The notes: a model not told the origin generated them from the sequence alone. A stretch of 64,000 bases of DNA from Bacteroidales bacterium (GCA_015061185.1 SUWZ01000007.1:1-64000), one strand, 5' to 3'. Shown: positions 27,798 to 61,871, numbered from the stretch's first letter. Program-made: numbers and translations.

Positions 27798-27884
27798 TCC
27801 GTCTTTAAATTAATAAAAAAAGCCCTACAATCCCTTGCAAGACTTTCTCAAACCTGTTTAGTTTCAAAATATATATTTACATAG

Positions 27885-28997
27885 TTAAGGCTTTGAATAT
27901 AGGTGTTTTGCATTCAGCAAAACTTTATTAGGTACGGTAAATTTAATATGTCTTCCTCCATTCTTTTCAAAGAGTTCGAAGAATAGATTATGCTTGTTAG
28001 GTATGGTAAATCTCTTAAAAAAGAAGACAACCGAATAGCAACCTTTTGCAGCAATCCGCTCCGACTCACTTTCAGAATAAATATATATAGGGATTTTTTC
28101 ATCTGTTTGAAATGCTTGTTTCTTTGAAGTCCTTTTGTTGATTACGTAACTTTTGATAAAATCAATCTCGTAATCCACTTGAGAATTATTTTGGACATCC
28201 AAAAAAAACATCATAACATCATTATGTACAAATATCGAACGAAGTCCAAAAACCATTTTATTCTCCATAACTCCTAAATTTCTCAATTGTGTGCCCTCTT
28301 TTAATATCTTTTTAGCCAAATTTTTCATTTCAGGTTCTCTCAAAGAATAGTCTGAAAAAATAGCTTCCACTTGACTCTCATTCGAAATATTGTAATTGAC
28401 AACATTCGGAGATTCATTATAGGTGACGATAAAAGGATAAAGGTTCCCATCTTCTGTAACTATAGTAAGAGAAGTTTCGTCAAAAAATTCAAAACCGGAT
28501 GCAACAGATTTACATTTTATAACATTATCAATGCCCTCAGCTTGTTCTGCAATAATTGTATCTACACCGGCACTGACCTCCACCACTTTTTTATCAAAAA
28601 TAAGATGACTTGTTTGTTTATGAGAAAGTTCTATTTCATAAAAAGGGATTTCAGAACGAACGTCACTCACTTGAAAAGCAATAAAGGGTAAGTTGGTTCC
28701 ATAATTGAGTTTAAAAGTATGAACAATACCATCCATAGTGATAATTGTAATACTTGTGCTTTCGAAATAAGGAATTTCACTTTTGATCCTTAGAATAGAA
28801 GGGATAACACTCTTTTCGATACGAATATCTTCTGTTCCCATATCAGCATACTTGATGTCACTATTAAATTTCAGATAGAGCCATTTCGTGTCAGAAATTT
28901 CCAACGAATCAGTCTTACTTCCTACTAAATTGGCAGCAAAAAGAGCCGGAAAATAGAAACAAAACAATATACATAAATACAATTTCCTATTTTTCAT
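27885..28997 (-). CDS. traN: Conjugative transposon protein TraN (DUF4138-like)
   Basis: 370 aa with NNSQVDYEIDFIKSYVINKRTSKKQAFQ typical of Bacteroidetes TraN, at the end of an overlapping tra cluster. Confidence 0.85.
   Translation of the reverse strand: MKNRKLYLCILFCFYFPALFAANLVGSKTDSLEISDTKWLYLKFNSDIKYADMGTEDIRIEKSVIPSILRIKSEIPYFESTSITIITMDGIVHTFKLNYGTNLPFIAFQVSDVRSEIPFYEIELSHKQTSHLIFDKKVVEVSAGVDTIIAEQAEGIDNVIKCKSVASGFEFFDETSLTIVTEDGNLYPFIVTYNESPNVVNYNISNESQVEAIFSDYSLREPEMKNLAKKILKEGTQLRNLGVMENKMVFGLRSIFVHNDVMMFFLDVQNNSQVDYEIDFIKSYVINKRTSKKQAFQTDEKIPIYIYSESESERIAAKGCYSVVFFFKRFTIPNKHNLFFELFEKNGGRHIKFTVPNKVLLNAKHLYSKP
28133..28188. repeat. 56-bp direct repeat, copy inside traN
   Basis: See 26711-26766; encodes NSQVDYEIDFIKSYVINK on the minus strand. 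Confidence 0.95.
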
Positions 28998-30129
28998 TCG
29001 TCTTAATTATTAGTTTATAGTTAGCCGGCAAAGTAACTTTAGTTCTACGAATTGAACCGGTAACTACATTTTTTGCAGCATTAACAATTGCATTTGCTCC
29101 GGAACTCACAATCCCTGTAAGTCCGCTAAAATTAACATCCGCAGAAGAAACAGTCTCACTTGAAGCCTCTGTTTTAGCATCATTTACCAAATTGTCCGGA
29201 ATATAAATTCCCAAGAAACCATCTTGATCATATATCCTCCCTCTGAAAGGATAAATATTATTCCGAAATGCTATATTTTCAATATCAATATTTACTCTAT
29301 TCTCGGAAAACGAAGCCATACCAAAAATGATTGTATTACGCGGAATCATAAAACCATCAACCTCAATCGGGTCTAATATTCTCAACTTAATTTGAGAAGA
29401 TTCTGTAATGTCCTTTTGTTCTCCATGAATCACAGCTCGAACACTCCCTTTGGGAGCTGTGGAGGTAGCTGAAACACCTAACGTTCTAAATCCATTTTTA
29501 TTTTTAGTTGTCTTTACCTCTTTTTCATTTTCAGTTGGTTCATCTTCTGTCGAAGAAGATGTTTGTGGCAGTTCATTCACAACTTTCTTACCATAATACA
29601 ACTCCTGTAACCGACGTTCTCTTTCTGCAATTTCTGCTTGCATTTTGGCCTCCCAATCTTCCGCAGTCTCATCCTTTGCTGTTCTTGTAGCACTTCCACC
29701 ACTCCCTTTTCGAGGAGTCCTTTGAGCAATCTGTTTTCTATTGGGAATAATCGGGGCTCCCGAAGAACCAACAACCACCTCTTTTAGAGTCTCAAATAGA
29801 CTTTCGTCAATAGTTGTATCCAAAATATTTGTCTCTTTCTCCACGTCCTCTTCCAAAAACAGAAACGAATTATTTGCCTCTTCCAACTCCTTTTCTTGCT
29901 TCAGTAGATGAGTAGCCTGCTTGAAAGCCTCTAACCTATCATTAGGAATTTCGTCCACCATTACATCAGGCAAAGTATCAAGATTTAATGCAACTTCTTC
30001 AACCGAATAATTCGCTTGTGACCCACCTCCCAGCATATAGAAAATAGACAAAAAACCGACAAAGAAAAAGAGTGTACACCCCTGAACAATAAGCAATTTC
30101 CTTTTTAATTTATCATCAATTTTCATCAT
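28987..30129 (-). CDS. traM: Conjugative transposon protein TraM
   Basis: 380 aa with single N-terminal TM, EDWEAKMQAEIAERERRLQELYYGKK and a VirB10-like C-terminal half (GFMIPRNTIIFGMASF). Confidence 0.88.
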   Translation of the reverse strand: MMKIDDKLKRKLLIVQGCTLFFFVGFLSIFYMLGGGSQANYSVEEVALNLDTLPDVMVDEIPNDRLEAFKQATHLLKQEKELEEANNSFLFLEEDVEKETNILDTTIDESLFETLKEVVVGSSGAPIIPNRKQIAQRTPRKGSGGSATRTAKDETAEDWEAKMQAEIAERERRLQELYYGKKVVNELPQTSSSTEDEPTENEKEVKTTKNKNGFRTLGVSATSTAPKGSVRAVIHGEQKDITESSQIKLRILDPIEVDGFMIPRNTIIFGMASFSENRVNIDIENIAFRNNIYPFRGRIYDQDGFLGIYIPDNLVNDAKTEASSETVSSADVNFSGLTGIVSSGANAIVNAAKNVVTGSIRRTKVTLPANYKLIIKTNEK

Positions 30130-30433
30130 CTTTTCGCATATTAAGTGTATCCACCCCCTCCACTAACATCAAAAAAGAATCTTTAGAGGCTGAAAAATGG
30201 TCGTGAACACGATTCAGTTCATTACTAAGTGCATCTAATTGATCTTGTGAAATCGTCTGATTATCTCCCGAAGATATACTTTGCCACCCCTCAGATGTAC
30301 GCATAATTTTTATCACAGACTTAGTTGCAAAACCCAGAATCAAGATAGAACAAAGAAGAATAACGTATGTTTTTCTTTCAACAACCGGAATTTTGTTTAA
30401 ATACTCCGACAATTTTTCTTTTAAATTATTCAT
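30116..30433 (-). CDS. traL: TraL-like small membrane protein (DUF3989-like)
   Basis: 105 aa with one TM, located between TraK and TraM; overlaps traM. Confidence 0.7.
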   Translation of the reverse strand: MNNLKEKLSEYLNKIPVVERKTYVILLCSILILGFATKSVIKIMRTSEGWQSISSGDNQTISQDQLDALSNELNRVHDHFSASKDSFLMLVEGVDTLNMRKDDEN

Positions 30434-30448
30434 AAAATAGACAATATA

Positions 30449-31069
30449 TTATCGTTGAACACTTTTAATTTCGGTCATATCATTTACCTGCCAATTATTA
30501 ATAATAAAACCATGCGGATTATTGTCTGAACGAGGAGAATTAATCAATTCACAAGATGTTATAAGTCGGTAATAAGAGACAGAAGATCTTCTCATGATAG
30601 AACTCACAGCATAAGTCTTAGCCGTATAGGGATAAACATCCATATTCAAGCAAATTGAATCGATACGAATTTCATTAATAATTCCTGCACCAATCATCTT
30701 TTGGTAATAACCACTTTCCTGACGAGTTTTATAAAATTCAAGGGCAGAATTATCAGCCAAGAATAGAGCCTGTTTCACGTTATCTTCGATAGCAGCACCA
30801 TCAGGAGCTAAAGTAAAGAACAGCTCATGAAACCATTTAACGTGTGCTTTAGCCTCTGCCGGTTTATTCATATAAACATCTTGCGAAAGAGCCAACATCA
30901 AAGATTTCCCATTATCTAATACGTAAACTTTTTCTCTCTGTTTTTCAGCAAATTGATAGGATTGAAATATCGCATAAGCCGACACTCCCAAAGCGAGAAG
31001 AGTAATTCCAATCAAATAGAATCGAGAGAGCGCAAATGCCCCTTGAATATTTCTCAAACTTTTTAACAT
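30449..31069 (-). CDS. traK: Conjugative transposon protein TraK
   Basis: 206 aa. SYQFAEKQREKVYVLDNGKSLMLAL and EAKAHVKWFHELFFTLAPD are typical of TraK. Confidence 0.88.
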   Translation of the reverse strand: MLKSLRNIQGAFALSRFYLIGITLLALGVSAYAIFQSYQFAEKQREKVYVLDNGKSLMLALSQDVYMNKPAEAKAHVKWFHELFFTLAPDGAAIEDNVKQALFLADNSALEFYKTRQESGYYQKMIGAGIINEIRIDSICLNMDVYPYTAKTYAVSSIMRRSSVSYYRLITSCELINSPRSDNNPHGFIINNWQVNDMTEIKSVQR

Positions 31070-32154
31070 TGTTGCACATTTTTAGGTAAGACCTCTTGTT
31101 TAATTTGAGGTTGAAAAATAACCTTTGCACCCTTCGCTTTTCTAAAGAACTTCAGCACATTTGAAGGCAAACCGGAACTTGATGCACCTCCAATCATTCT
31201 TGCTGCAGCTGCAGAGCCGGCAATAGTAATTCCTCCCATAAGTCCTTCCATTGTTCCGGCACTTACAACATAAGAGGCAATATTCGGTATCATCAAGTAT
31301 AAAACTATGAATGCGATTAAGAAAATGATATATGAAATTGTTATAGACATTAAAGCAGAATCAACGCTTGACATCGAGTCTGTCAACGCAGCAATAGCCT
31401 CTTTGTAATATTCGATATGCGTGCTTATCAACAATACATTCAACTTATTAATAATCACATCCATAATATTTGCGATGGGAATAAATAAGCAAACATTTAT
31501 ATATTTCCCCACCCAAGAGACCCAATTACCTTTAAAAGCAGGCAAAACAGACATAGCAAAAGCAAAAGGCCCCAAAACAATTAAAATAATTCGGAAAGCA
31601 TAACTCACCACTCTGAGAGTCAACTTTATAGCACCAAAAATAATTGAAGCAAAGTATTCCAATGACTCCAGAAGGAGATTAATGCAATTATCCAATAAAT
31701 GTTCAAAGAAAGTGGTCACAGAACTCACTTTGAAAATATTGCTCCAAAAGGTTGTTCCTTCTTGCTCCAAAGCAGCCTCTTTTTCTCTAAACTCAGTTCT
31801 CACATCCACCAACTTTTCTTTCTCTTTCATCAATTCCTTTCTATCTAACGCCAAATTCTCTGTATAAGCATTAATAGGAGACAAAATACCATCAACAAGA
31901 TTATATACCAATGAGAAGTTCATAATAACAATTCCAATAATGAAGGGCCGAATAAGCACAGAGAAATCGATCGGACTCCCTTTTGCCCAAGTTTTCATTA
32001 ATAAATTTCCCAAATAAACAAGAGCAAACATTCCACACAGAAAAAAACACAATTCTGTTAATCCGGAAAGTTTTTCCAAGCAACCATTAAATAAATTCTC
32101 TGCAAACTTATTAGAAAACAAAGAGGAAAGGTTAATAGTAGATTCGTTATTCAT
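31063..32154 (-). CDS. traJ: Conjugative transposon protein TraJ (VirB6-like multi-TM)
   Basis: 363 aa polytopic protein in the canonical position between TraI and TraK. Confidence 0.85.
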   Translation of the reverse strand: MNNESTINLSSLFSNKFAENLFNGCLEKLSGLTELCFFLCGMFALVYLGNLLMKTWAKGSPIDFSVLIRPFIIGIVIMNFSLVYNLVDGILSPINAYTENLALDRKELMKEKEKLVDVRTEFREKEAALEQEGTTFWSNIFKVSSVTTFFEHLLDNCINLLLESLEYFASIIFGAIKLTLRVVSYAFRIILIVLGPFAFAMSVLPAFKGNWVSWVGKYINVCLFIPIANIMDVIINKLNVLLISTHIEYYKEAIAALTDSMSSVDSALMSITISYIIFLIAFIVLYLMIPNIASYVVSAGTMEGLMGGITIAGSAAAARMIGGASSSGLPSNVLKFFRKAKGAKVIFQPQIKQEVLPKNVQQC

Positions 32155-32157
32155 ACT

Positions 32158-32772
32158 TTAGAAATTTATAAAAGAAAACAGAAAATCTTCTCTATTTGTA
32201 GAGACATAAGGAGACAAATACCTAAGATAAATATCATTCATTTCATCCGAAGTCATTTCCATCTCTCTCTTCAAGGTTCTAAGTTCTTGAAGACGCTCAA
32301 AATCAGATAATGTCACACCTTTATCCGCATTCTTATCAGAAACAACCGCAGTTGCTTTTTTTGAAATTTCACTAATGTTATCGCAACAGTTAATCATTTC
32401 AGCAATACACATAAATTTTTCATCATTGCTGAGGAGGTCTGATTTAAAAATTGCATTTTGCATAGATTTGAAATTTTGCACAATATTTTCCCCCACAGAA
32501 ATAATATCCACCACCTCTTGGGCACTCTTTACGAAAGAGGAAACAATTTCAATATTTTGCTGTAATTTCCGACTCTGATCCAACGCTTTTCTAGCAAGAT
32601 CAATCTGTTCGATAAACTTATATTTCTGCTCAATTTGTTCTGTCATTTCTTCGGTAGCCAACACAAACCTCTGAGCCACAGATGCGGGGTCAGAAATAAC
32701 CATAGCCCCCTGCGCATACATATTTAAATGCAAAGTGATAGCCAAACAAAAAGAATAAAGTAATTTTTTCAT
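32158..32772 (-). CDS. traI: TraI-like exported protein (DUF4141-like)
   Basis: 204 aa with signal peptide and coiled helical body, positioned between TraG and TraJ. Confidence 0.75.
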   Translation of the reverse strand: MKKLLYSFCLAITLHLNMYAQGAMVISDPASVAQRFVLATEEMTEQIEQKYKFIEQIDLARKALDQSRKLQQNIEIVSSFVKSAQEVVDIISVGENIVQNFKSMQNAIFKSDLLSNDEKFMCIAEMINCCDNISEISKKATAVVSDKNADKGVTLSDFERLQELRTLKREMEMTSDEMNDIYLRYLSPYVSTNREDFLFSFINF

Positions 32773-35273
32773 GATTTAAATTGTTTAATATAACAAGGAA
32801 TAGCTTTTAAAATACTATTTCCATTTTCTCTCATTAGATTTTGCAATCTTCCTTTTTCTTCCTTATCAGTTGTAAAGGTACAATACTCCTCATCACTAAC
32901 TTCCACACCATAAACAGCACAAAAATTTCTCAGTGAAATAAAGACCTCTTTGTAACGAGAACGAGAAGTAAAATTCAGATTATTGTTAACAGAAAACAGG
33001 ATGTTTTGCTCTTTTTTCGATAGGGACAAAATTTCTTGAATGATTGATACCTTCTCCTTAAAATCTCTCAAATCCAATAAGATTTTACAATGAGACTGGG
33101 TAATCATAATATCTTTAATAAATTTATTCCCCACCAAATCATCAGGTTCTTGAGTAACGATAGCGATTTCACCAAAATGTTTTCGAGCCGTTCTATAAAG
33201 ATACCCGATAAAAGTTGCCATACCCTCTTTGGCAATAGCTTGCCAAGCCTCTTCAATTAACATCAATTTTCGCTGATCCGATGGCAAACGTCTGATCTTA
33301 TCCATAAAAGTGGCCATGATGATTAAAGTTACAATTGGGAAAAGTGTTTTGTTATCTTTGATGTTATCTAACTCAAAAACAATGAATCGTTTTTCAAGCA
33401 AGTTCAATTCCTCCTTTGAATTCAATAAATGCCCAAACATTCCGCCGGATTCAAAAGGTTTTAAAACTTGTATCAAATCGTCCACATCAAAATTCTCGAC
33501 TCTTACACACAATTCATTTTGGATATAAGGTTTAAAGATTGATATGAGATAATGATAAAAAGTATCAAAACAAGGAGTGATAGAACGATCATCGCAAATG
33601 ACATCAATGTAATTGTAAATTGCCACTTTTATATGAGTGGACTCAGTATTACTTAATCCCATATCCCCCTTCCATAATGTTTTTATAAGAGTGAGCAGCT
33701 GTTCTTTTTTCTCCTCTGAGTAGTCATAATTTTTCTCATAGAAGGGATTAAAAGATAGTGGTTTATCCTCAGTATAAGTAAAATATAAACCGTCATCGGA
33801 ATTCGTTTCTTCATTGATTAAATGACAAAGACCTTGATAAGAATCACCCACATCGACTAAAACGACATGACAACCCTGTTCCCAATATTGCCTTACTAAA
33901 TTGTTCGTGAAGAAAGATTTTCCCGAACCGGATGGACCAATAATCACCTTGTTACGATTGTCAATCCACCCCTTTTTTTTAGGATAATCATCCAAATCAA
34001 TTCTCACCGGTACTCCTGCCAATCTATCAGTTAAATAGATTCCAAAGTCAGAACTACCTACCATGTTTTTATAATTAGTGTCAAAGTTTAGAAAGCAACA
34101 AGCTTGCTCCAAAAAAGTCAAGAAAGTTAATTCTTTTGGATATTGAGACGCCGCTCCCGGAATACCTCCCCAAAAGACTTGAGGAACTATTTTTTCTGTT
34201 TTTGTTTTAGTACAGCAGTTAATTTTAGACATTGCCGCCTCAACCAGCGCATTCTTATCCAACAATTTATTCCAATTCTTATCCCAAGTAATTACATTAA
34301 AGGCACATTTAACAGCTCTTTTTTGGCCTTCATACGCTTCATCCAAAAACTCCATATTACGCTGCAGATTCAAACTGTTCGCTCTGGAAGCATTAGAAAA
34401 AGCCTGCTGTAATTTCCCTTTTTGGCGAATCGAATCAAGAATTTTTTTGTCATCTTCCAAAAAATAATATTGATTGAAAATATGCTCGCAATTCAAAGAC
34501 AATCCTAAATCCGCTGTAAAACTTTGCGGTACATGAAAATTGGGAGGACTTGACAATTTGGAATTATTTGAACAACTGCAAACAAAAGATGGAACTGCAT
34601 CTAAATCTGCGATTGAATGACAAGATACATAATTATCTCCTACCATAAGAGATCCATCCTCAACATGTAGATCGCTCAAAACAGTCCCTCCGGAAAATTT
34701 TAGATTTAAATATTGCTCAATAATTCCTAATTGCAAATCATCTCCCAAAAGTTCACTATCTTCTATCCGTCGTACATAAATACCATTATCCGACAAAATC
34801 TGTATAAACCGAGAAACAGCTTGAGTGAAATCATTCAACCTATTTTCATCCATTTGTTCTTTTGGTATTAACCGATTTCGACATAAAGAAGACAAAACAG
34901 AAGTAGTCTCCATATTCGCTTTACAAGAAAGGGTGATGAAAAGAAAAGAGCGATGAGATAGAAAAGATCTTCCCTGAAAATGAGAAGCATAAGCTGAACT
35001 TAAAAACGAGTTTCCACTTTGTTGTAAATCTACTTTTGAGTATGTGTAAATATCCTGTTTATGTATTATTGTATAATTGGGAAAATCTCTCATTCCGGAT
35101 ACAAAACAATTGTGCAAAGTTTTGTATCTATCAACATCAGAAGTGAACGACTCGATTAAAGTCAGTTCTAAACAAATAGTTACATCAGAAGACTTTGAAA
35201 TAAGAAATCCCCCATCCAACTTCCATAAAGGGAAAACCTTCTCTATCAAATTACTCTTTATATTAAAATTCAT
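32769..35273 (-). CDS. traG: Conjugation system ATPase TraG (VirB4 family)
   Basis: 834 aa. Walker A IIGPSGSGKSFFTNNLVRQYWEQG, Walker B LMLIEEAWQAIA, and the VirB4-like N-terminal region. Confidence 0.95.
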   Translation of the reverse strand: MNFNIKSNLIEKVFPLWKLDGGFLISKSSDVTICLELTLIESFTSDVDRYKTLHNCFVSGMRDFPNYTIIHKQDIYTYSKVDLQQSGNSFLSSAYASHFQGRSFLSHRSFLFITLSCKANMETTSVLSSLCRNRLIPKEQMDENRLNDFTQAVSRFIQILSDNGIYVRRIEDSELLGDDLQLGIIEQYLNLKFSGGTVLSDLHVEDGSLMVGDNYVSCHSIADLDAVPSFVCSCSNNSKLSSPPNFHVPQSFTADLGLSLNCEHIFNQYYFLEDDKKILDSIRQKGKLQQAFSNASRANSLNLQRNMEFLDEAYEGQKRAVKCAFNVITWDKNWNKLLDKNALVEAAMSKINCCTKTKTEKIVPQVFWGGIPGAASQYPKELTFLTFLEQACCFLNFDTNYKNMVGSSDFGIYLTDRLAGVPVRIDLDDYPKKKGWIDNRNKVIIGPSGSGKSFFTNNLVRQYWEQGCHVVLVDVGDSYQGLCHLINEETNSDDGLYFTYTEDKPLSFNPFYEKNYDYSEEKKEQLLTLIKTLWKGDMGLSNTESTHIKVAIYNYIDVICDDRSITPCFDTFYHYLISIFKPYIQNELCVRVENFDVDDLIQVLKPFESGGMFGHLLNSKEELNLLEKRFIVFELDNIKDNKTLFPIVTLIIMATFMDKIRRLPSDQRKLMLIEEAWQAIAKEGMATFIGYLYRTARKHFGEIAIVTQEPDDLVGNKFIKDIMITQSHCKILLDLRDFKEKVSIIQEILSLSKKEQNILFSVNNNLNFTSRSRYKEVFISLRNFCAVYGVEVSDEEYCTFTTDKEEKGRLQNLMRENGNSILKAIPCYIKQFKS

Positions 35274-35583
35274 CTCCTTTTCTAATTATCAATGTACGAA
35301 CACGTTTGTCATTCTGGATTCTTTGATGAAGTTTTCTTGCTCCTCGCTCCATCAATAAGCCGGTTTCTCCATACTTCCCATTTAGATAATAGGCAACTCC
35401 AACAGATCCAATCATCACAATTGCTACCAAAATTATTGAGATTTCAAAAGGAAGAAACAGTCCCAAGATAAAGTAAAGTAAAACTCCAATTACAATCCCC
35501 CCTAAGGCTATAAAAACATAAATGGTTTGTAAACCTTTAAATTCAAACGATCGTCCTACCCCCTTGTTAATGGGATACTCCAT
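35263..35583 (-). CDS. traF: TraF-like protein (DUF4133-like)
   Basis: 106 aa MEYPINKGVGRSFEFKGLQTIYVFIALGG..., overlapping the traG start. Confidence 0.88.
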   Translation of the reverse strand: MEYPINKGVGRSFEFKGLQTIYVFIALGGIVIGVLLYFILGLFLPFEISIILVAIVMIGSVGVAYYLNGKYGETGLLMERGARKLHQRIQNDKRVRTLIIRKGDEF

Positions 35584-35882
35584 TTAAGCAAAAAAGAAAT
35601 TTTTAACAACCATAGAAACAACGCAAGCAATAACAAGTCCACCGACCCAACCGCCGATTTTTTTAGCCGAGTCATTATCTCCATTAAACATTTTATAGGC
35701 CACAACAGCACCGCCTACCAATGCAAATAAACCACAAACAGACATAAACAAAGTTAACGCAGGGAAACCATCTTGTCCAATTGAGTATTGGCTGCCTTTA
35801 ATGCCTCTGAAGCTTGCTTTTGAGAAAATGCCTCACAAACTACAAACAAAAAACAAACTAAATTTAAAAATCTTTTTTTCAT
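35584..35882 (-). pseudogene. traE: TraE-like protein (DUF4134-like) with apparent -1 frameshift
   Basis: Frame 0 gives MKKRFLNLVCFLFVVCEAFSQKQASEALKAANTQLDKMVSLR* (TAA at 35754-35756). The -1 frame continues LTLFMSVCGLFALVGGAVVAYKMFNGDNDSAKKIGGWVGGLVIACVVSMVVKNFFFA*. Immediately upstream of traF. Confidence 0.75.
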
Positions 35883-35893
35883 ATTTAAACTAT

Positions 35894-36100
35894 TTAATTA
35901 TTTACTACTTCCTCATCAAGACTAACTTTTTCATTAGCCTCAACTCCGGATAACGATTTTTTCTTTCTTAATTTATTGATTGAATCCTTTTCGCCTGATA
36001 TGCAACAAACACAGATTGACATCATAATATCCAAACACAAGCAAACAATAACATCGACGAACAGAAAATCCAACCAAGCGATTTCTGACAATCCAAACAT
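35894..36100 (-). CDS. Small hypothetical membrane protein
   Basis: 68-aa ORF upstream of traE on the same strand, with a hydrophobic N-terminus. Confidence 0.5.
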   Translation of the reverse strand: MFGLSEIAWLDFLFVDVIVCLCLDIMMSICVCCISGEKDSINKLRKKKSLSGVEANEKVSLDEEVVNN

Positions 36101-36432: not shown

Positions 36433-36446
36433 AAAATCAACAATTT

Positions 36447-39400
36447 CTAATTAGAAATCTTCACTAATTTAAACCTATGTTCAGCCACTTCTAACACGTA
36501 ATTTCCGCTATACAGATATTCTAAATGAAGCTCTAAAGAGGATTCTCCTTCTCCTTCGATAAGTTTTCGTCCAACCTCATCGTAAAGAGTGTATCGAAAT
36601 CGTTGCTCCGGATAATGAATTTTTATCCAAGAATCAAAAAGTGATGGATAAACTACCGGTTCTGAAATCTGATGCTGCTCTATCCACTCCTCAATTTCCA
36701 CTTCATCTTCAAAAAATCCTGCTCCATTTTCACCACTTCGTACACTCTCCCATGGAATGTAAAGAGCTGAAGAGCGAACAGTATCTTTACATCCAAATTC
36801 AGAAATCGCATACATTGTTACAGTATATCTTCCTCCATTATAAAAATAGGAAAGAGGAGAATCTTTATACGAATAGAGTCCCTTTGCACTTAAGTCTATA
36901 TTGCTCTCTTCTTCGTAATCTTTTGAGTCGATTAAAAGCCACCCAATGGATTGTAGCTTCTGTTCTGTTGTATTAAAGAACTGAACCAAAGCTCCTTGTT
37001 CAATCTCTACATTATCTGCCGATGCATTATAACGAATTTCATTATTTTGCGTCAATACAGAAAATTCAAAATCGGCTTCGAATAATTCAAAATCCAATGA
37101 ATAGGTAATTGTTGACGTAATTCCCGTTTTTTCAGATACTCTTTCGATTGTCAACTCTATAGGTTGTGTGACATTTTTTAAGGTCAAAACAAAATCTCCC
37201 TTTGGTCTGATTAACTCTCCTTCTGTGTATTTTTTTAAGTGAAGATAGATATCATCATACCCTTTAACTTGATAGGCATAATCACCTGAGCATGTAGGCT
37301 GATCGGAATAATTTAAGTAATCCCCAATTCTTATTTGACATTCGTCTCCATGACATAGTGCTTTTTGAACGACTTGAACATGTTTTTCAAGAATAGGCGG
37401 AACATCATTTAGCGTAATTAGTTTGAATCCTTCTGAATATTCTATACCACATTGATTTTCAATTACTAATCTATAGTATCTCACTGGGAAACTATCTTTA
37501 ACAGAAATAGCCAACGTGGTATCAATTCCAATTTTAATTGGGAATGAAAGCGTCTCCCAATTAACATTGTCTTCACTGTACTGCCAATAGGCTTTTGTTG
37601 CATTAATAACATTTGAACTCAAAGTAATGGATAAATCAGGTGTTTTTTGAGCATAGCACTCAGAGAACTCCAATCCTTTTTCTTGAAAATATGAGGAATC
37701 TTGAAGTAGGACAATTGTTCCTACCTGTGGCTCTTCTTGTAAAGAGACCTCCACTTCGTTGCTATAAAGAATATATTCACCTGAACGGGTAATGCGTCTA
37801 TAACTCGTTTTGACATCTATAACTTGAGGCTTATACTCCTTAGCAGTTGCCCCCTCAATGTTTACATATTCCGGACGAGAAAAGTACTCATTACGATATT
37901 GCCATTGATAGGTGTACTCTCCTACACCGCCTTCTACATCTGTAACAACAAAACTTGGCATCTCTTCGCCTTTGCAAACTTTAATTGCTTTGTCGCTGTG
38001 AATTCTTCCTCCTCTCAGAGGAACGATTCTATAATTTGAATAACAGTCTCCTCTTTTTTGAATTTTCAATAAAGAATCTTTGTACAAACTTGCCGAATAA
38101 GGTAATTTTTGAGATCCGTACAACAACAAAGGTAATTCTCCATCTCCAACAAATTCATACTCTGTCTCAATCTCTTTGTTGCGGGTATATAGAATAACAG
38201 AATCCTGTTCTTCAGTTAGTTGCGTGACAATTTCCATCGATAATTCTGTTACATAATCTACTTCCTCCAATGGTTGAGCTACAAATGACAAGACATTACT
38301 CCACAACGTATCACATCCATTTGATACACTTCTTTTAAGATAAAGAGTATCCTCGATGGCTATATAAATATCTTTCTCATTTTGCAATAAGATTTGAGTC
38401 CATGAATTGTTGTCACTTGAACGATACCATGAAAAATAGATATGCTCTACATCTTCAGAAACTGAAGGAATTTCTCCCTCAACATGAACAATTGTTTGAC
38501 TACATGGGGAGGTCTCATCGCAAGAGATTGAATTACGAGAATCATTCAGAGGAAGTGCTGTATGTGCCTCAATTTTCAAAGGTTCGCTTTCACAACGATT
38601 CCCTAATGAATCGACTGCCACCAAAAGCAAATCATATTGCTTGCTATCCTCCGCAAACCCATCCAATGTAACTGCATGTTTTGACGCTCCAAAGAGACCA
38701 CAGATTTTTTCTTCATCAAAAATTTCGATAACAACCGACTGAAAACCGGCAGTCAGATATAACGATGAAATTGAATCAAAATCTGATGGTTCTATCGAAA
38801 TATTAAAATTTCTATTTTTACACTTATAGTCAGACAAAACAAAGAGATTAGGATTCTCCAAGAGAAGTTCTTTTTTCACCTTAATCTTAATCACATTGGA
38901 TGTGTCACTCGCACAAATATCATTAACAATTCGTCTATAATAGACATCCGATTTTACGTTAAGCACTTCTAAATGTTCATCTGAACTAAAGCTTTCAAAA
39001 TCTACATTGTCGTATGAATATTGCCACTCAAAATTCTTTTCGCCATTTCCTCCATAAACATCACCTCCATCTACCCTTAAATAAGAGTTGAAACACAAAG
39101 GCTCTTCCGGTTGCAATATAGTTTCTTGAGCTAATTTTGGCAAGGAGTCCACATCAAAATAGGTTATCGGAGAAGGGCAACCCGATATATTTGATTCTGC
39201 ACGAACTCCGTAAGATGTTACCTCTGCCACGTCTGTTACGCGCTTAATCTCCATAGAATCTGCAACAACAGAAGCCCATTTCATATTTCCTTCTTGGTCA
39301 AGCATATACCATGAGTGGGTATAATCTCCTGTATTATGAACACGCACCAAAACCTCGTTCGTATCACAACTCTCGTTATCTTGATATATACTTGGAGCCT

Positions 39401-42400
39401 GCGGTTCTTCCCAAATCTTTATTTTTAACACATTGCTAATTACCTCACCACATCCATTATTTCCATCTCTGTACATTGCTCTAAAGAATAGATTATTGGT
39501 CTTACTAAAATCCAACATTAAAATGGAATGTGAACGAAGCAACAAATTCAGATCTATCTCGGTTCCATAACGTGTATAATTCTGCAAATCAACGAATTCC
39601 AAACCATCTAAAGAGTACTGCCACTTATATTGATAACCAATTCCATCCACACCGCAAATACCACCAACCGGAGTTGTTGAAGCTAACGTAGGGAAAGAAT
39701 CTGTGGTACAAAATGCATCTTTTGGAGACAGATAAGAGATCGTTCCCGGCAAGAAATCATCATAGAAACGAAGTGTAACAGTATCTGAGAAAGAGACTCT
39801 TCCGCATTCATTAGTTGCTTTTCGTCTGAACATATAACAACTAACATCATAAGAGGCAAGTGAATTTATCTTTTCGGCCGATAGGTCTAAATCAGTGGCC
39901 ATTGGTATATCTTTCCAATGTTTCCCGAGACCATCGGTTGCCACTTGCCATTGATAAACAAAGCTCCTTTCCTGACCAAAATTTGGTGAAATCATCATTC
40001 CGGAAGCCTCTTTAACATTTACTATTGCCTTAAAACTATCTGCTCTACACAACAATGTCTCTCCAATATAGGCCAATTTGCCGCCCTCACTTTTAGAGTA
40101 AAGAGGAAGGTTAATTGCTATACTCTGAGACATGCAACTCTTCTCCGAATCATAACGAGTTAAGAAGATTTCTGTCGGGGTTTTGTCAGAGATAATTGTT
40201 CCGTATGAATATCCTCCTTTAGACAAAGTATCTGTCAAAGATGAATTTCCAAACCAATAACAATCATATAACAGATCTCCATACCTGACAACAAGGCTAT
40301 CTCCATACTCAAATCCCTGCGTTATCTTTTCTCCTTCAGGAGTTACGGCGAAGCAACTGATTTCAGAAGAATCAGCAACTCTGTTTGACAAGGCAACTCG
40401 AACATAATCCGAATAGGTGGTAGAACAACCATCTGAAAACGCAAATTGAACATAATAATTTGATGATAAATCCTGCATCATCCAAGCTCCTATTGCATCA
40501 TTTTCCAAACGACTTTTCTCATCAACAATCCATCCACCCTGAGAAATTTTATTGCTTGGCAAATACTCTACCCAAGTAGAAAAATGCGCAGAATATCTAT
40601 CATACTGTTTGGGCCCATAATAGCCTGATTCCCAAAATTTATACAATGAATCCGAAATATGAACTTTGACCTTTGCAGATTCACCAAAACAGAAATTATT
40701 TCCATCTTCCATCAATAACTCACCTGCCAGACTTTCACCTTCCCACATTTTCGATTCCACCAAAGAGAGAGTTGGAACAACATACAATGACAAAGTATCA
40801 GAACTAACTGCACGAGATTCCATCACCCCGTTATTATTGACACTAAAACGAGTAATTCGATAGAAAGAGACCTTTTTTTCTAATGTTCCACCCAACGAAC
40901 TATTGGTAAAAAGAGTTTGTTCCAATTTACACTTATCCAAGTCGATATCAAAAGTATAAACCCCCAAACTTTTATTGCTTTCATTAGAATCATTTACCCT
41001 ATAATACCACTCATAAGTATGCCCACTCAAGGAATCTTCTATACCATCAGAAGAGATTTTCCCGGCAGATTGTCCACTGCAAATCCAATAATTTGAGCCC
41101 GAATTATCAAAATTGTCAAAAGTCAAATGCCCTCCATCAACCATATAAGTAGATATTAAAATTGTATCCCTATTAGATGAAATACATCCATTCTTTGCCA
41201 GCGACGCCACATAATAGATCGTTGGAGAATTCATAATGGAAGGTGTGACAAAATTTTCTGTCCACTCTGTGGTGTCGCAAGAAATATTATTCGCATCATA
41301 CCATATATAACTGTAATTCTGCGACTTACCCCACATATTTGCACTGGCACCATTAGCAATATAGGGAGTATAACCTATATCACTTGCAGAAATTTTCACC
41401 TCGTCATTCACCCTAACCATCAACTCCTGTTTAGACAATAATTCTGTTTTACAATTTCTGTCTGAGACACGTCTTCGAATCTTTCCATCGGAGAACATCG
41501 GATACCTTCTATTAAAGTTTTGAGATTCAGCCATAGTAATATCCTTCCAACCCTCCAATTCTCCGCTTGAATTAAGCGAATTAACTTGCCACTGATAGCT
41601 ATATTCTCCACTACCTCCGGAAACAGGTTTACCAACAACCACTCCCAACTCTTCTCCATAACACAACTCCAATTCTCCCCAGACATCAATTCCACCATCA
41701 AGCAGGGGCGAAAACACCTCTTTGCGAAGTGTATTGGTTAAATATGAAGCCCCTTTATACTCTCCAACCGATTTCACCAATGCATAAAATTCTGTTGACG
41801 ATGTAAGATGTGAAAGACGTAGTTGTGCCGTGGCTCCTAAAATCCCATAACTAATTGTGCTACCTTCGTAATGGAACAAAGCTGTATCGATACTCAACGT
41901 ATCCAACAAAACAAAACCACCCATATTATCGGATTTATAATACCATTCAACCTCATAACGTCCATCTCCTCCTACAATCGAATTTAAACTGAAGGTGAAA
42001 GAGTTATCATCAGCCTTACAGACCGGAGAAGAGTTATTAAGGAAGAGAGGATCTGCTGTCAATTTGGCAAATGCTTTAAAGGAGAATTCAATCGTATCAG
42101 ACAGACAATTTCCTTTATCATTCGTTTGTTTGTAAACATAAACAGAATTTTCTCCAACAAAAGGTCCGTTGATAACCACCGGATTCCCTTCCTGCCAATC
42201 TTCTCTCAACTCAGAATCTTTTGTCCAATAATAGGTGCTATTATAGTCGTTTCTGACCGTCAATCGAATGGAAGACAATCCACTTGCATTATCATATATC
42301 ACTCCATTAGAGACCATAATCTCTTCCGGATTTAAACGAATGCCCTCATTGTATTTAAGCCAGATATTATTTTCAGAAAAGTACTCTTCACCGCTACATT

Positions 42401-45400
42401 TATCTGTGATACCCAACCTAAACATAGTACTTGAACTATAGTTATCCAGATCTATTGTACACTCTGCCGATTTCGTACCAACGGTAGTTCCTTCAACCGT
42501 TACTTTCTCCCAATCATTGCCTCCTGCCACCATTTGATACCATTGATACGTTGCTACATTGTCGGTTGCAACTCCATCAACTTTCATTGTCAACTCTCCT
42601 TCTGCCCCTTTGCAGACATAAAGAATCGTCTTCTCACCACCATCGGCAAAATAGATTGCTCCTGCTTTTACTCGATCTTTTCCTGTTACCTCAAAAATAT
42701 TACTGCTGACCGAAACTTTCCTACCTTCCACTTCGTAAGTCAATTTTGCATAATAACGGTCTGTAGTCCCCGAATTTGCGCTAACAGTAATCGTCGCACT
42801 ATCCCCAACATTAGCCCATTGATTTTGAGCATTACCTCTGTACCAAACATACGAAACATGCTCCATATTCAAAGGTTGATTGTTGTAATGAGGCAGTGAA
42901 GATAGAGCTAAGGTTACTTCTTCTCCTGCACAAACCGTGGTAGGTAAGACTCCGGACAAATCAGATTCAACAATCGGCATACCATCGAACCCATCACTAA
43001 GAGGAATGGCTATTGTGCTATTCGAAGAACAACGTTTATTCGTACTAAAACGAGTGATCGGAAGTGTAGCAAGATGGTTAACAAAATCTGTACTTCCCAC
43101 TTGAATATTCAATGTTCCATCAAAAATAGTAGGAACACCATCAACCAATAACGAATCACCTAATTTTAATTCATCACCGTTAGGACCTGGATGAATCATC
43201 AATAAAAGATCTTTTAATTTTCCTCCTGAAATATCCCCTTCATCCACAAAAGCAGGTTCGGAAGTAATGCTAAAAGTTAGCTCCTTTTCTACCTCTATAT
43301 AAGCAGTTTCCGTTACACTATATGCCATCGAATGAAGACAAATATTATCTGAAACCGTCACCTCTACTTCTTGCTTTCCGGCACCTGAAAGAGCCTCAAG
43401 GTGCAACCTGTTACTCAAAGAATCTTCATTGGAAATTTGCGTTCCTCCAATACTCCATTTATAACGATAATCACCACTTCCACCATGAGCTTTAACTACA
43501 AAATCCACCTCCTCACCATGACAAACAGCTGCTTTAGAGAAAGACAACTCAACTTGTTCAACTTCACCCAAAGTCTTGATGTAAACCGTATCCAATACTC
43601 TTCTACAATTATTGATATCCGAAGAGGTTCTTACCACCCTATACAATTGCTTTGGCATATTGAAATAGTCGCCGGAACTCACTAACGAAGAGTAGTTTTT
43701 GTTGATATTGGCACCATTATTGATATTCCAAACATACGAAATAGAAGGATTCTCTTCTTGAGGAATTTCATCTATAATCGTTAGAGGAGAAGCAGCACAC
43801 ACAAAGAAAGTATCGTCCACAACTCTACTTCCGGCACTGTTCTGCATTTCAATAGTTAATTTGCTATGTAATAACGGATTATCCATCTCTAAATTATCAA
43901 TTCTAAATTCTTTTTCCTGCAAACAACCCACATCAGACTTTACAAAAATCGAATAGGACTTTGACCCCTTTTCCGGGAGCAAGATATTGTTGCAACTAAC
44001 GCCAAGCACAGTATCTATGCGATTTTGATTATCACCTAAGAAGACAAAACCATAATTGCTCTCTTTATACTTTGGCGAATTGATATGAATAGAAGCACGC
44101 TCACCCCTCACCATACAATCGCCATAAACCACCGAAAGGTCTTTCAATAAATCATCGTACGGCCTCACTAAAATCGAATTGGACGAGTATATCTTTTCTC
44201 CGCAATAATCTAAATAAGACTTAACCAAAATGGTATCTGTCACTATAAAATTTGACAAATCAAGTTGCGAAAATTCTATTGTATCATTTGCACTATTGAT
44301 ATAAATATAATTAGGATGTAAATCAAAAATACCTTGCTTCTTCAGAATAGAATCATTTTCAAATGAGACCGATAATTCAAGATTACTACCATAACAAACA
44401 TTCAGACTCTCTTTCTGTTCCGAATTAACCCTAACCCTGAAATTAGGGATAGAGCGAGGAGCAATTTTCAGAACATTACTCACTCCTGAAATATAACTTT
44501 CAGTGTCGTTAATATCAATATGAGAATAACACTTTCTTCGAATAAAATAGGATGTATGCGTAGGTTTGTTCCATACCCCCTCTTTCAGGCTTTCAGAAAC
44601 TACAAATTTACCATCAACCGTCTGCATATTCATCCATGTTTGATTATCATTTGAATATTGCCATTGGTAACTATATGTTCCTTCTACCCCATATCCACCA
44701 AGAACCTCAGAGCCAACGATATAAGGTGAAGCATCGGCACTACATAAATATTGAATAGAATCTATGTTATTAGGAGCATTCTGACTAAATGAAATAATAT
44801 TGTTATACAAACTTCCTTTGTACGAAATAGATAAATAAATAGGACTACTTTCACAATTAGTAGTATTTTTATTATCCACTTTTACAATTTTAATTCCTCT
44901 GGAGTTGTTCTCTTTAAACCACTTTCTATCCTTGATAGAAGAGGAAATTAAATGCCCATTCGCACCAATAGGTTTCCCGCTGTCCCAAATATAAGCTCCC
45001 TCTGCATCTTTTTGGTCTGTAAGGTAATAGATATAAAACCTCATATTAGGTTCGTTATCCTCAATAAAGAGTGTAAAATTCCCCTGCGAAGAGACCTTTA
45101 ATTCCTCACTCAAACCAGATGTAGCATTAGTGATTGTTGCTCCCATAACGGATATATCTTGCTTGGAAAACGATGGTAAAGGATTAACTATAATCGACTT
45201 ATCAATCGTTACGGAATTATTGCAACCATCTTTCACCTCTATAGAGATAGATTTAGTATCCAACAACTCTTCATAGAACGGAAGGGATAGTTCCGAAGTC
45301 ACAAAATCACCATTCAGACTTGCAATATTTGACTTCACAGTATAAAGAAAATGGTTAGGGTTATCATTTTTTAAAGAACTATAGACCGCACCACTTTCCG

Positions 45401-46814
45401 GCTGGAACTCTAACTTTAAGAGATCATCATAAATCATCCCCGAACATGTAGGATTAAACTCCGGTGATGAAAAAAGTTCCTTTTTCAACGAAGAATAGCG
45501 AGTCACATTCACCGTCTTATTTGCAGCTGAAGAATAGACCTTAATTCCACCAAAATTATTGATGACCGCATATTGTCTAAAACAATAGACTATGTCTTCC
45601 TCTATCAAAGACTTTGGAATACACAATTTAGGCGAAGTGACATCATTACCTGAAATTTCAACAATTTTTCGAGGATTTTTAGATGTATAGTACTCCCAAC
45701 CATAAGCAACACCATACAAATTTTCATTTTGCAAAGCAGAATTATCAACCGACTCTATTCGATTTCCATCGATGCTCAACACACCATCCATCATGCAATC
45801 CAACTCCAAACCGGGAACAAAAGTTTGAGATGACGGACAAACATAAATAAGTTCATCATTATCGAATCCCGGCAAAGAAACAGGAGCAACAGATTGGAAA
45901 GTAAGTTCATTACTCTTACATTCAAAATTATCATTTACGTAAACCCTAAAAATCTTTTTAATTTCCCCCTCCGATTTTTTCGTATCGAAACCCAAATTTG
46001 TTAATTTCAAAGTTGCATCATAAGTCCCCCCGTCAGTAGGAATAGTTGCATAACTCCCCAAATTTGCATCATAAACACGGTACTCAAATTTTTCATTAGG
46101 AATATTGGGCAAATTACAATGCTCTTCGCTTGAAATTTTTATCTTTTTACTGTTATCAGATAAACTATGATATACACCAAAAATAGGAGTCAACTCTGTT
46201 CCGATATTTGGAGTAACTGATTGATCAGTAGTAATTTTACCAACAATATAATCACAGTTATAAACCATTATTTGCTTATTGATAACAATGGTCCCCTCAT
46301 TTAGCCACCTATCCTTTTCTGTACCCTCGTAATCGCAGAAACCTTCAATTTTAAAGCGAAAATTGATAGGCGTTTTTTGTTCTACCATCTCATCACCCAA
46401 CAAATCATTCAAACTAATAAAAGCCTTTTGATCCCATCCATCAATAATCGCGACATAACAATTATCATCGCCAGAACTATTTTCTTTTTTGAAAGAAGTA
46501 ATCCCCCACGCACGCTGATAATTACGATAAGCACCCATCGGAATAGGTTTAAATTCTTCTGAAGAGCCCACACTATACTCTGCAGTGAAATACAACGTAA
46601 TACTATTAATTTCACGAGCGGCATAAGAACTTTTCGCATGAAGTTCAAAATTTGAGGCAGAAATTTCCACCAGTTCGTCCAATTGGTAAATTTGTTCTTT
46701 AATGGTAAACTCGGGATAGTGATTTTCCTTCAGTTTAAAGAACAACTCACCTGCATTTGAATAAGAAATAAGGACAAACAAATAAACAAATAGAGTTAAA
46801 ATTTTCTTTTTCAT
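36447..46814 (-). CDS. Giant (3455 aa) surface protein with many Ig/SprB-like repeats and a T9SS type A sorting domain
   Basis: Signal peptide MKKKILTLFVYLFVLISYSNA. Recurrent YxYQWQYSxDNxxW motifs. C-terminus VYPSLFDSWIKIHYPEQRFRYTLYDEVGRKLIEGEGESSLELHLEYLYSGNYVLEVAEHRFKLVKIS. Confidence 0.9.
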   Translation of the reverse strand: MKKKILTLFVYLFVLISYSNAGELFFKLKENHYPEFTIKEQIYQLDELVEISASNFELHAKSSYAAREINSITLYFTAEYSVGSSEEFKPIPMGAYRNYQRAWGITSFKKENSSGDDNCYVAIIDGWDQKAFISLNDLLGDEMVEQKTPINFRFKIEGFCDYEGTEKDRWLNEGTIVINKQIMVYNCDYIVGKITTDQSVTPNIGTELTPIFGVYHSLSDNSKKIKISSEEHCNLPNIPNEKFEYRVYDANLGSYATIPTDGGTYDATLKLTNLGFDTKKSEGEIKKIFRVYVNDNFECKSNELTFQSVAPVSLPGFDNDELIYVCPSSQTFVPGLELDCMMDGVLSIDGNRIESVDNSALQNENLYGVAYGWEYYTSKNPRKIVEISGNDVTSPKLCIPKSLIEEDIVYCFRQYAVINNFGGIKVYSSAANKTVNVTRYSSLKKELFSSPEFNPTCSGMIYDDLLKLEFQPESGAVYSSLKNDNPNHFLYTVKSNIASLNGDFVTSELSLPFYEELLDTKSISIEVKDGCNNSVTIDKSIIVNPLPSFSKQDISVMGATITNATSGLSEELKVSSQGNFTLFIEDNEPNMRFYIYYLTDQKDAEGAYIWDSGKPIGANGHLISSSIKDRKWFKENNSRGIKIVKVDNKNTTNCESSPIYLSISYKGSLYNNIISFSQNAPNNIDSIQYLCSADASPYIVGSEVLGGYGVEGTYSYQWQYSNDNQTWMNMQTVDGKFVVSESLKEGVWNKPTHTSYFIRRKCYSHIDINDTESYISGVSNVLKIAPRSIPNFRVRVNSEQKESLNVCYGSNLELSVSFENDSILKKQGIFDLHPNYIYINSANDTIEFSQLDLSNFIVTDTILVKSYLDYCGEKIYSSNSILVRPYDDLLKDLSVVYGDCMVRGERASIHINSPKYKESNYGFVFLGDNQNRIDTVLGVSCNNILLPEKGSKSYSIFVKSDVGCLQEKEFRIDNLEMDNPLLHSKLTIEMQNSAGSRVVDDTFFVCAASPLTIIDEIPQEENPSISYVWNINNGANINKNYSSLVSSGDYFNMPKQLYRVVRTSSDINNCRRVLDTVYIKTLGEVEQVELSFSKAAVCHGEEVDFVVKAHGGSGDYRYKWSIGGTQISNEDSLSNRLHLEALSGAGKQEVEVTVSDNICLHSMAYSVTETAYIEVEKELTFSITSEPAFVDEGDISGGKLKDLLLMIHPGPNGDELKLGDSLLVDGVPTIFDGTLNIQVGSTDFVNHLATLPITRFSTNKRCSSNSTIAIPLSDGFDGMPIVESDLSGVLPTTVCAGEEVTLALSSLPHYNNQPLNMEHVSYVWYRGNAQNQWANVGDSATITVSANSGTTDRYYAKLTYEVEGRKVSVSSNIFEVTGKDRVKAGAIYFADGGEKTILYVCKGAEGELTMKVDGVATDNVATYQWYQMVAGGNDWEKVTVEGTTVGTKSAECTIDLDNYSSSTMFRLGITDKCSGEEYFSENNIWLKYNEGIRLNPEEIMVSNGVIYDNASGLSSIRLTVRNDYNSTYYWTKDSELREDWQEGNPVVINGPFVGENSVYVYKQTNDKGNCLSDTIEFSFKAFAKLTADPLFLNNSSPVCKADDNSFTFSLNSIVGGDGRYEVEWYYKSDNMGGFVLLDTLSIDTALFHYEGSTISYGILGATAQLRLSHLTSSTEFYALVKSVGEYKGASYLTNTLRKEVFSPLLDGGIDVWGELELCYGEELGVVVGKPVSGGSGEYSYQWQVNSLNSSGELEGWKDITMAESQNFNRRYPMFSDGKIRRRVSDRNCKTELLSKQELMVRVNDEVKISASDIGYTPYIANGASANMWGKSQNYSYIWYDANNISCDTTEWTENFVTPSIMNSPTIYYVASLAKNGCISSNRDTILISTYMVDGGHLTFDNFDNSGSNYWICSGQSAGKISSDGIEDSLSGHTYEWYYRVNDSNESNKSLGVYTFDIDLDKCKLEQTLFTNSSLGGTLEKKVSFYRITRFSVNNNGVMESRAVSSDTLSLYVVPTLSLVESKMWEGESLAGELLMEDGNNFCFGESAKVKVHISDSLYKFWESGYYGPKQYDRYSAHFSTWVEYLPSNKISQGGWIVDEKSRLENDAIGAWMMQDLSSNYYVQFAFSDGCSTTYSDYVRVALSNRVADSSEISCFAVTPEGEKITQGFEYGDSLVVRYGDLLYDCYWFGNSSLTDTLSKGGYSYGTIISDKTPTEIFLTRYDSEKSCMSQSIAINLPLYSKSEGGKLAYIGETLLCRADSFKAIVNVKEASGMMISPNFGQERSFVYQWQVATDGLGKHWKDIPMATDLDLSAEKINSLASYDVSCYMFRRKATNECGRVSFSDTVTLRFYDDFLPGTISYLSPKDAFCTTDSFPTLASTTPVGGICGVDGIGYQYKWQYSLDGLEFVDLQNYTRYGTEIDLNLLLRSHSILMLDFSKTNNLFFRAMYRDGNNGCGEVISNVLKIKIWEEPQAPSIYQDNESCDTNEVLVRVHNTGDYTHSWYMLDQEGNMKWASVVADSMEIKRVTDVAEVTSYGVRAESNISGCPSPITYFDVDSLPKLAQETILQPEEPLCFNSYLRVDGGDVYGGNGEKNFEWQYSYDNVDFESFSSDEHLEVLNVKSDVYYRRIVNDICASDTSNVIKIKVKKELLLENPNLFVLSDYKCKNRNFNISIEPSDFDSISSLYLTAGFQSVVIEIFDEEKICGLFGASKHAVTLDGFAEDSKQYDLLLVAVDSLGNRCESEPLKIEAHTALPLNDSRNSISCDETSPCSQTIVHVEGEIPSVSEDVEHIYFSWYRSSDNNSWTQILLQNEKDIYIAIEDTLYLKRSVSNGCDTLWSNVLSFVAQPLEEVDYVTELSMEIVTQLTEEQDSVILYTRNKEIETEYEFVGDGELPLLLYGSQKLPYSASLYKDSLLKIQKRGDCYSNYRIVPLRGGRIHSDKAIKVCKGEEMPSFVVTDVEGGVGEYTYQWQYRNEYFSRPEYVNIEGATAKEYKPQVIDVKTSYRRITRSGEYILYSNEVEVSLQEEPQVGTIVLLQDSSYFQEKGLEFSECYAQKTPDLSITLSSNVINATKAYWQYSEDNVNWETLSFPIKIGIDTTLAISVKDSFPVRYYRLVIENQCGIEYSEGFKLITLNDVPPILEKHVQVVQKALCHGDECQIRIGDYLNYSDQPTCSGDYAYQVKGYDDIYLHLKKYTEGELIRPKGDFVLTLKNVTQPIELTIERVSEKTGITSTITYSLDFELFEADFEFSVLTQNNEIRYNASADNVEIEQGALVQFFNTTEQKLQSIGWLLIDSKDYEEESNIDLSAKGLYSYKDSPLSYFYNGGRYTVTMYAISEFGCKDTVRSSALYIPWESVRSGENGAGFFEDEVEIEEWIEQHQISEPVVYPSLFDSWIKIHYPEQRFRYTLYDEVGRKLIEGEGESSLELHLEYLYSGNYVLEVAEHRFKLVKISN

Positions 46815-46996: not shown

Positions 46997-48088
46997 TCAA
47001 ATTACGAATTCATATTTTTTCCATTGGCACCAAAGTCCCCACTTATCCATACATCTAAAATAGACTGTATGTGTCCCGATTGTTTGAAAAACATGATTGA
47101 TAGAAGACAACGATGTAGAACGAATCCAGACTCCCCCTTTCATAATAATCTTTTCATATTCACCATAATAACCCACATTAGCAACAATTCCATCACTTCT
47201 TAAGAAGCCAATATCCTTGGAGAAGAAATCGCTATCATATCCACCGAACTCGGAAATTTCGTAAGGAGAAGATTCCACCTGATAAGGATCAATTAGGAAT
47301 TCATACTTTAAAATCTCGTCGTGATTTGGATCATCAGCAACAATTGTAAGGGTTCTTGACAAAGAATCAACCAAAGAATTATCCTCTACCACCAATTTAG
47401 GAAGAGGAGGTTTGTTGTAATGAATATTTAAAAGGATATTGACAGAACCCACCTTCCCCAATTTATTGGCAACATGAAGTTCGATGCGCGATTCGATTAA
47501 AGAGGTCTCCGATGATCGCTGAGGAGCCTGATTTTCAGAGACAATTAACCCAATCGGACTATTAACATTAAATTCACGAAAAGAGTAATGAATATAGTTT
47601 TCATAAAAATCCAGAGCACTTTTGGTATTTTCAGAAATAACAATTTGCCCATTTTCTTTATCCACCATAAAAGATAAATTATCAGCAAACTGCAACTTTC
47701 TTCCCTCGTTATTAAGGAAATCAATGCCCAAATCACTCAAAGTACCCACATTATTTGATTCCAAATTCCAATAAGTGGTAAAATTATCAGCAAACCCCTT
47801 CCAATAGTAACCATCCAACCGATTGTTATACATAGGAACAATATCATAAAATACCTCACCAATACCCCCATACTTATCTTCCAAAGTATAATCGATTTTT
47901 ACGGTTTCACCCCAGTGTAAATCGACACAAATGTATCGCTTTCCCTCCATTGTAGTATCAGAATCCGACTGTAGGTGAATAACCGGTTCTTCACAATGTT
48001 CAAAAAAATAATCATCTCTTGTATCGCAAGACAAAACACAAAAAGAGATCGAAAAGACATACAATGCCTTTCTCCAAATTTTTTTCAT
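46997..48088 (-). CDS. Hypothetical lipoprotein
   Basis: 363 aa with lipobox-like FCVLSCDTRDD. Confidence 0.8.
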   Translation of the reverse strand: MKKIWRKALYVFSISFCVLSCDTRDDYFFEHCEEPVIHLQSDSDTTMEGKRYICVDLHWGETVKIDYTLEDKYGGIGEVFYDIVPMYNNRLDGYYWKGFADNFTTYWNLESNNVGTLSDLGIDFLNNEGRKLQFADNLSFMVDKENGQIVISENTKSALDFYENYIHYSFREFNVNSPIGLIVSENQAPQRSSETSLIESRIELHVANKLGKVGSVNILLNIHYNKPPLPKLVVEDNSLVDSLSRTLTIVADDPNHDEILKYEFLIDPYQVESSPYEISEFGGYDSDFFSKDIGFLRSDGIVANVGYYGEYEKIIMKGGVWIRSTSLSSINHVFQTIGTHTVYFRCMDKWGLWCQWKKYEFVI

Positions 48089-48102
48089 ACCAAAAATTTA
48101 AA

Positions 48103-61867: not shown

Positions 61868-61871
61868 CATC

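Follow-up and report, generated by a model that had tools for sequence, protein, structure and literature searches.

A relaxase-less Bacteroidetes mating-pore locus with a giant surface protein: a probable domesticated type IV secretion system in gut Bacteroidota

Introduction

Here, we describe a locus on a 64,000-nucleotide stretch of DNA from a Bacteroidales bacterium (termed the window; G000:C62:1-64000), which belongs to a 2.9 Mb, 99.98%-complete genome. Nine minus-strand genes at 27885–35882 make up the mating-pore core, TraE–N, of a type IV secretion system (T4SS) of the Bacteroidetes mating-pair formation class (MPF_B), as recognized by family models and position. The gene set reaches beyond 36100 to 48633, and upstream of the core comprises a giant protein, a lipoprotein with immunoglobulin-like (Ig-like) domains and a TraO-type barrel. 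On sequence grounds, we hold with moderate confidence that the locus is a domesticated, non-conjugative MPF_B T4SS, most likely now a contact or adhesion apparatus. A group of uncultured gut Bacteroidota would thus retain pore and giant surface protein as an ordinary chromosomal set after loss of the DNA-transfer genes, and this loss suggests a present role in cell contact or protein export.

A pore without DNA-transfer genes

The required MPF_B set, a VirB4-type TraG with TraF, TraJ, TraK, TraM and TraN, is present by family matches: TraG, TraK and TraN exceed NCBIfam cut-offs, TraM and TraF exceed Pfam cut-offs, and TraJ falls below its own (table 1). The locus encodes an envelope channel with VirB4 and without VirD4, the combination by which VirD4-less T4SSs are recognized. 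A first-pass annotation of the window had taken the minus-strand genes at 27885–36100 for the Bacteroidetes pore core, and the family models for TraN, M, K, J, G and F bear it out. Within its TraE–N series, TraI and TraL are assigned by position and size; the frameshift in traE had escaped it. Its limits do enclose the core; they leave out the TraO, lipoprotein and giant genes, all three of which recur alongside the subfamily, and the protein in the TraD position had gone uninterpreted. Spacing from the small transmembrane open reading frame at 36100 through TraN at 27885 is −14 to +15 nt, which indicates that these genes form one operon and did not come together by chance; gaps of 182 and 346 nt flank the giant gene.

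Profile searches of the whole window genome found no relaxase (PF03432), MobB (NF041325), MobC-type coupling protein (NF041326) or type IV coupling protein (T4CP) domain (PF12696). The absence of a relaxase and coupling protein, first noted for the 64 kb with the advice to look further afield, thus extends genome-wide. The same searches did detect a T4CP or relaxase in genomes G034, G051, G001, G006 and G013. T4CP is also undetected in G002, G004, G012, G020 and ten more genomes whose loci belong to group beta or gamma, which together with the window genome makes 15; one of these 15 has a relaxase, in a 251-amino-acid (aa) frame. The first-pass annotation had seen no integrase within the 64 kb; the window contains no relative of the enzyme of the sister integrative and conjugative element (ICE) in G034; other recombinase families were not searched. 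The window has no tRNA, and no pair of flanking direct repeats lies at the locus ends among the 20 repeat families listed; the sole long near-perfect repeat is a copy of a traN fragment. This copy (56 nt, 98% identical to internal traN 28133–28188) lies with a cation-efflux gene (26856–27797) in an insertion of approximately 1.1 kb relative to G012, at window positions 26711–27814.

Selection and maintenance

Comparison of the window with its nearest species, G012, gives ratios of non-synonymous to synonymous substitution (dN/dS) of 0.026–0.14 for TraF, G, I, J, K, M and N (dS 0.1–0.37), comparable to the 0.03 of thiL; TraL, at 0.53, is weakly constrained. These values indicate that the genes of the locus are under purifying selection, TraL excepted. 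The two genomes are syntenic on either side of the locus and all core genes are intact in G012. The core genes are likewise open in G002 and G013, and in G004 save for a split traJ. The checks of dN/dS and synteny proposed by the first-pass annotation therefore came out low (except TraL) and conserved, respectively, and the pervasive pseudogenization that it held would count against its reading is not seen in sister genomes. Seven species of group beta share the order TraE-N-TraO-giant-lipoprotein and, beside it, one common flanking gene.

TraO, lipoprotein and giant protein

The barrel protein at the upstream end can be placed in the TraO family by sequence profiles: its family profile matches an alignment of ICE TraO (hhalign 97.4%, E 1.2e-11), and a homologue in locus L087 passes the PF10626 TraO cut-off; the window's own protein has no PF10626 match. 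The neighbouring lipoprotein was aligned with 14 relatives, and its gene adjoins TraO wherever both are found. An AlphaFold2 model (predicted local distance difference test score, pLDDT, 68) returns generic Ig-like PDB matches in a fold search, with template modelling (TM) scores near 0.2; at such scores, the fold can be described no more specifically than as Ig-like. The giant protein has an Ig_7 match (E 7e-6) just below cut-off, and its homologues in L193 (3.6e-9) and L092 (2.6e-6) carry a type IX secretion system (T9SS) sorting tail over cut-off.

Among 61 genomes, TraO and the lipoprotein occur in 16 of the 16 that have this T4SS subfamily, even where unlinked to the core; outside those, strong scores for both are found in just two (G003 and G014). 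In most of the genus, the TraO, lipoprotein and giant genes lie at a site separate from the core. In L084, L087 and L088, the genes for VgrG, a protein of 280 aa and a large DUF4280 protein are followed downstream by a TraN-TraO-lipoprotein-giant module, and the stretch examined contains no T4SS core; L093 resembles this arrangement by gene sizes, and L196 is grouped with it.

Table 1. Features of the locus, listed from its upstream end.
Feature	Position	Strand	Basis or remark
TraO-type outer-membrane beta-barrel, 176 aa	48103..48633	-	PF13505 E 1.4e-6; profile match to ICE TraO
Lipoprotein, 363 aa, Ig-like sandwich domains	46997..48088	-	conserved Cys-(D/E)-(T/S)-R start
Giant secreted surface protein, 3455 aa, Ig-like, probable T9SS cargo	36447..46814	-	signal peptide by inspection
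Small membrane protein, 68 aa, TraD position	35894..36100	-	possibly short TraD; conserved in type A loci
TraE (VirB2-like)	35584..35882	-	two frames span gene; frameshift in this assembly
TraF (VirB3-like, DUF4133)	35263..35583	-	PF13571 E 6.4e-14, 52 bits, over cut-off
TraG (VirB4 ATPase)	32769..35273	-	TIGR03783 804 bits, over cut-off; Walker A GPSGSGKS at residue 446
TraI position (VirB5-like, signal peptide)	32158..32772	-	TIGR02791 weak, E 0.0025; position, size, conservation
TraJ (VirB6-like)	31063..32154	-	TIGR03782 118 bits, below cut-off 290
TraK (VirB8-like)	30449..31069	-	TIGR03781 255 bits, over cut-off
TraL position, small membrane protein	30116..30433	-	position, size; five-homologue cluster; no family match
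TraM (VirB10-like)	28987..30129	-	PF12508 128 bits, over cut-off; TIGR03779 147, below its 172
TraN (VirB9-like)	27885..28997	-	TIGR03780 219 bits and PF13595 213 bits, both over cut-offs

Elsewhere in the window, 17703–21245 encodes a protein of 1180 aa that combines a CotH domain with a type IX sorting tail above cut-off, and 59518–64000 (L032) holds a type II secretion/type IV pilus-like cluster with an N-methylation-motif pilin, a T2SSE ATPase and a secretin.

Relatives and history

The relatives are annotated as Paludibacteraceae, many of them from the herbivore gut, and TraK occurs in 14 of 16 genus genomes. In the TraG tree, 29 sequences, apparently from Paludibacteraceae, form a clade of their own, separate from the classical ICE clade. 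This clade divides into three subclades: type A; group beta/gamma; and type B, which includes G020 and several ICEs. Their join has a support of 94, slightly below the tool's starred level, and relaxase-less, T4CP-less loci recur in all three. Type A consists of the window, G012, G002, G004 and G013, and stands beside the elements of G034 and L082. Its TraG topology agrees with that of the hosts, the latter taken from a seven-genome thiL+OmpA tree that has no outgroup and therefore does not show how types A and B are rooted relative to each other. The thiL regions of G001, G002, G004, G006, G013 and G020 are without the locus, and the genes that flank it in the window are non-adjacent there. 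In L070, L071, L074, L076 and L128, which are probably ICEs, TraN lies apart from the core, between primase-like (Toprim) and topoisomerase genes.

In the ICE of G034 (C25; L197, L208, L052), whose TraG is the sister of the type A sequences, TraO, lipoprotein and giant protein are accompanied by a T4CP, a MobB-type relaxase, ParA and a tyrosine integrase. A 123-aa protein takes the TraD position in this ICE, and its match to the 68-aa protein of the window is weak (34% over 44 aa). We infer that the G034 gene content represents the ancestral state of type A: the ancestor would have been an ICE already bearing TraO, lipoprotein and giant protein, and the lineage would have shed ParA, relaxase, T4CP and integrase while keeping the channel and its surface partner.

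The type B contrast

Type B genomes retain a T4CP of 885–980 aa, which, in the stretches examined, sits among the same neighbours in eight species (G001, G005, G006, G007, G009, G010, G011 and G015); in G008, it directly follows TraN, and part of this neighbourhood is present. Presence of a non-ICE T4CP coincides with that of a protein termed P486, encoded by a gene that overlaps the one for its partner, P180: P486 occurs in 10 of 10 genus genomes with such a T4CP and in none of the six others. For independent genomes the chance would be 1/8008, but these genomes are not independent. P486 is absent from the window genome. The P180-P486 pair flanks type B core and TraO-lipoprotein-giant loci (L041, L042, L044, L046–L048, L051, L183, L188, L190, L191 and L195). 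In a fold search with P180, no PDB match reached an E below 0.03. The idea that P486 is a polymorphic toxin, one end of which would vary, was rejected because the protein is conserved over its full length. Type B cores L041–L050, as well as G020 and G051, have a tandem duplication of TraK, and in G010, T4CP and P486 are present and TraK, TraO and lipoprotein were not detected. L051 and L193 (G013:C1) represent a compact, divergent T4SS; its TraG is 26% identical to that of the window, and it comes with a T4CP, P180-P486, giant protein, lipoprotein and TraO of its own.

Proposed function and alternative explanations

In the domesticated contact or adhesion apparatus that we favour, TraG would drive assembly of an envelope-spanning channel or pilus from TraE, TraI and TraJ–N, with TraO and the lipoprotein at its outer-membrane end. 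Reach and specificity towards neighbouring cells or surfaces would be contributed by the giant protein, which probably leaves the cell by the type IX route. The periplasm would be the simplest source of any substrate, because no cytoplasmic coupling receptor was found; absence of a T4CP argues against direct cytoplasmic export. We regard as tentative, and clearly less probable than the contact role itself, a hybrid machine in which the T4CP-free pore exclusively serves a giant adhesin, exported by the type IX route and docking through TraN-TraO-lipoprotein-giant, and in which a sister form within the genus delivers cargo via its chromosomally fixed T4CP and P180-P486.

Several observations weigh against a domesticated contact apparatus. 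In this assembly, traE, likely the pilin gene, is frameshifted by a single-nucleotide gap, which could be either a real lesion or an assembly error; the gene is otherwise 96% identical to the intact copy in G012, and is intact also in G002, G004 and G013. The type A loci of G000/G012 are found at other chromosomal positions than those of G002/G004/G013, and one ancient domestication event is accordingly not demonstrated. The T9SS sorting tail of the window's giant protein is below cut-off (E 0.078). Furthermore, G003 and G014 hold TraO-lipoprotein-giant with no core of this subfamily detected, and the module with TraN stands beside VgrG genes in the three loci described above; its link to this core is thus not exclusive, and something other than the core may also bear on its function.

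The traE frameshift, the dN/dS of TraL and descent from an ICE would also suit a recently decaying ICE remnant, in which DNA-transfer genes went first and pore genes are drifting. The first-pass annotation had left the choice between a decayed ICE and a domesticated T4SS. Decay is unlikely given the low dN/dS across the rest of the core, core genes that are open in four relatives (the split traJ excepted), a relaxase-less state repeated in three subclades, and a traE lesion of one nucleotide that could be an assembly error. Purifying selection, recurrence in three subclades, the intact G012 locus and the common neighbour gene of group beta favour domestication. A less remote alternative, though still a doubtful one, is a two-step exporter like Bordetella Ptl or Brucella VirB, whose substrate, possibly the giant protein or unlinked proteins, would pass by Sec to the periplasm and then through a TraM/TraN/TraO outer channel. 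This would fit the lack of a T4CP, the intact VirB4 and VirB10/9-like genes and the signal peptides on accessory proteins, and known VirD4-less systems include such exporters (PMC12857230). However, no clear candidate substrate is linked, the T9SS tails of giant homologues point to another exit, and a VirB5-position gene is present here, while Ptl is without one.

Two further roles would keep the pore in the service of DNA. DNA uptake, as by Helicobacter ComB, which is also non-conjugative and without VirD4 (PMC12857230), appears improbable, somewhat more so than decay. A type II/IV pilus-like cluster with a ComP-like minor pilin does lie approximately 11 kb past the locus, and comM-like genes adjoin two type A loci; but those loci are at another chromosomal site, where such neighbours may be incidental, and ComB lacks VirB5. 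We know of no giant surface partner of ComB. Mobilizable elements use the pores of other elements, and the locus could in principle transfer DNA for elements that supply relaxase and T4CP in trans. This is very improbable: neither protein was detected in the window genome, and conservation of the pore in 15 T4CP-less genomes would be left unexplained.

Comparison with known systems

Chromosomal MOBless T4SSs (without relaxase) are already known (Guglielmini et al. 2011; PMC3158045). Membership of that class requires only that no relaxase lies nearby, whereas the present case combines genome-wide absence with lineage history and accessory genes. Protein-secreting T4SSs had been reported only for MPF_I and MPF_T (PMC4793230, 2016), and the term Bacteroid* does not appear in a review from 2025 that treats VirD4-less systems in a section (PMC12857230). 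Within the literature searched, novelty seems to lie in the MPF_B class, in the pattern across the lineage and in the accessory set. A family-wide relaxase-less MPF_B system in herbivore gut bacteria would broaden the known repurposing of conjugation machines. Since one genus holds both T4CP-free forms and forms with a T4CP and candidate cargo pair, the contribution of the coupling protein is directly testable.

The core genes and their order are those of the CTnDOT-type TraE–TraO transfer region (MPF_B). The window locus differs in having no detected relaxase, T4CP, ParA or integrase, in adding the giant protein and the Ig-like lipoprotein, and in its TraG, which falls in the Paludibacteraceae clade outside the classical ICE clade. 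The G034 ICE shares TraO, lipoprotein and giant protein with it; of the two, only the G034 ICE has T4CP, relaxase, ParA and integrase. Bordetella Ptl and Brucella VirB are likewise VirD4-less, but differ in their known substrates and MPF class, and to our knowledge neither has a giant protein of this kind. Helicobacter ComB, too, is VirD4-less and non-conjugative; it differs in lacking VirB5, in its demonstrated DNA uptake and in its MPF class. Among VirD4-less systems, Bartonella Trw, which has no coupling protein and mediates adhesion (PMC2883598, PMC12857230), fits best because the partner retained here is a giant surface protein; by this analogy, we favour a Trw-like role and rank Ptl-like export next. 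Trw resembles the window locus in its conjugative origin and lack of a coupling protein, although its surface role is known and that of the window locus is proposed. Unlike the window locus, Trw is proteobacterial and related to R388 Trw, and has amplified pilus genes rather than a separate giant surface protein.

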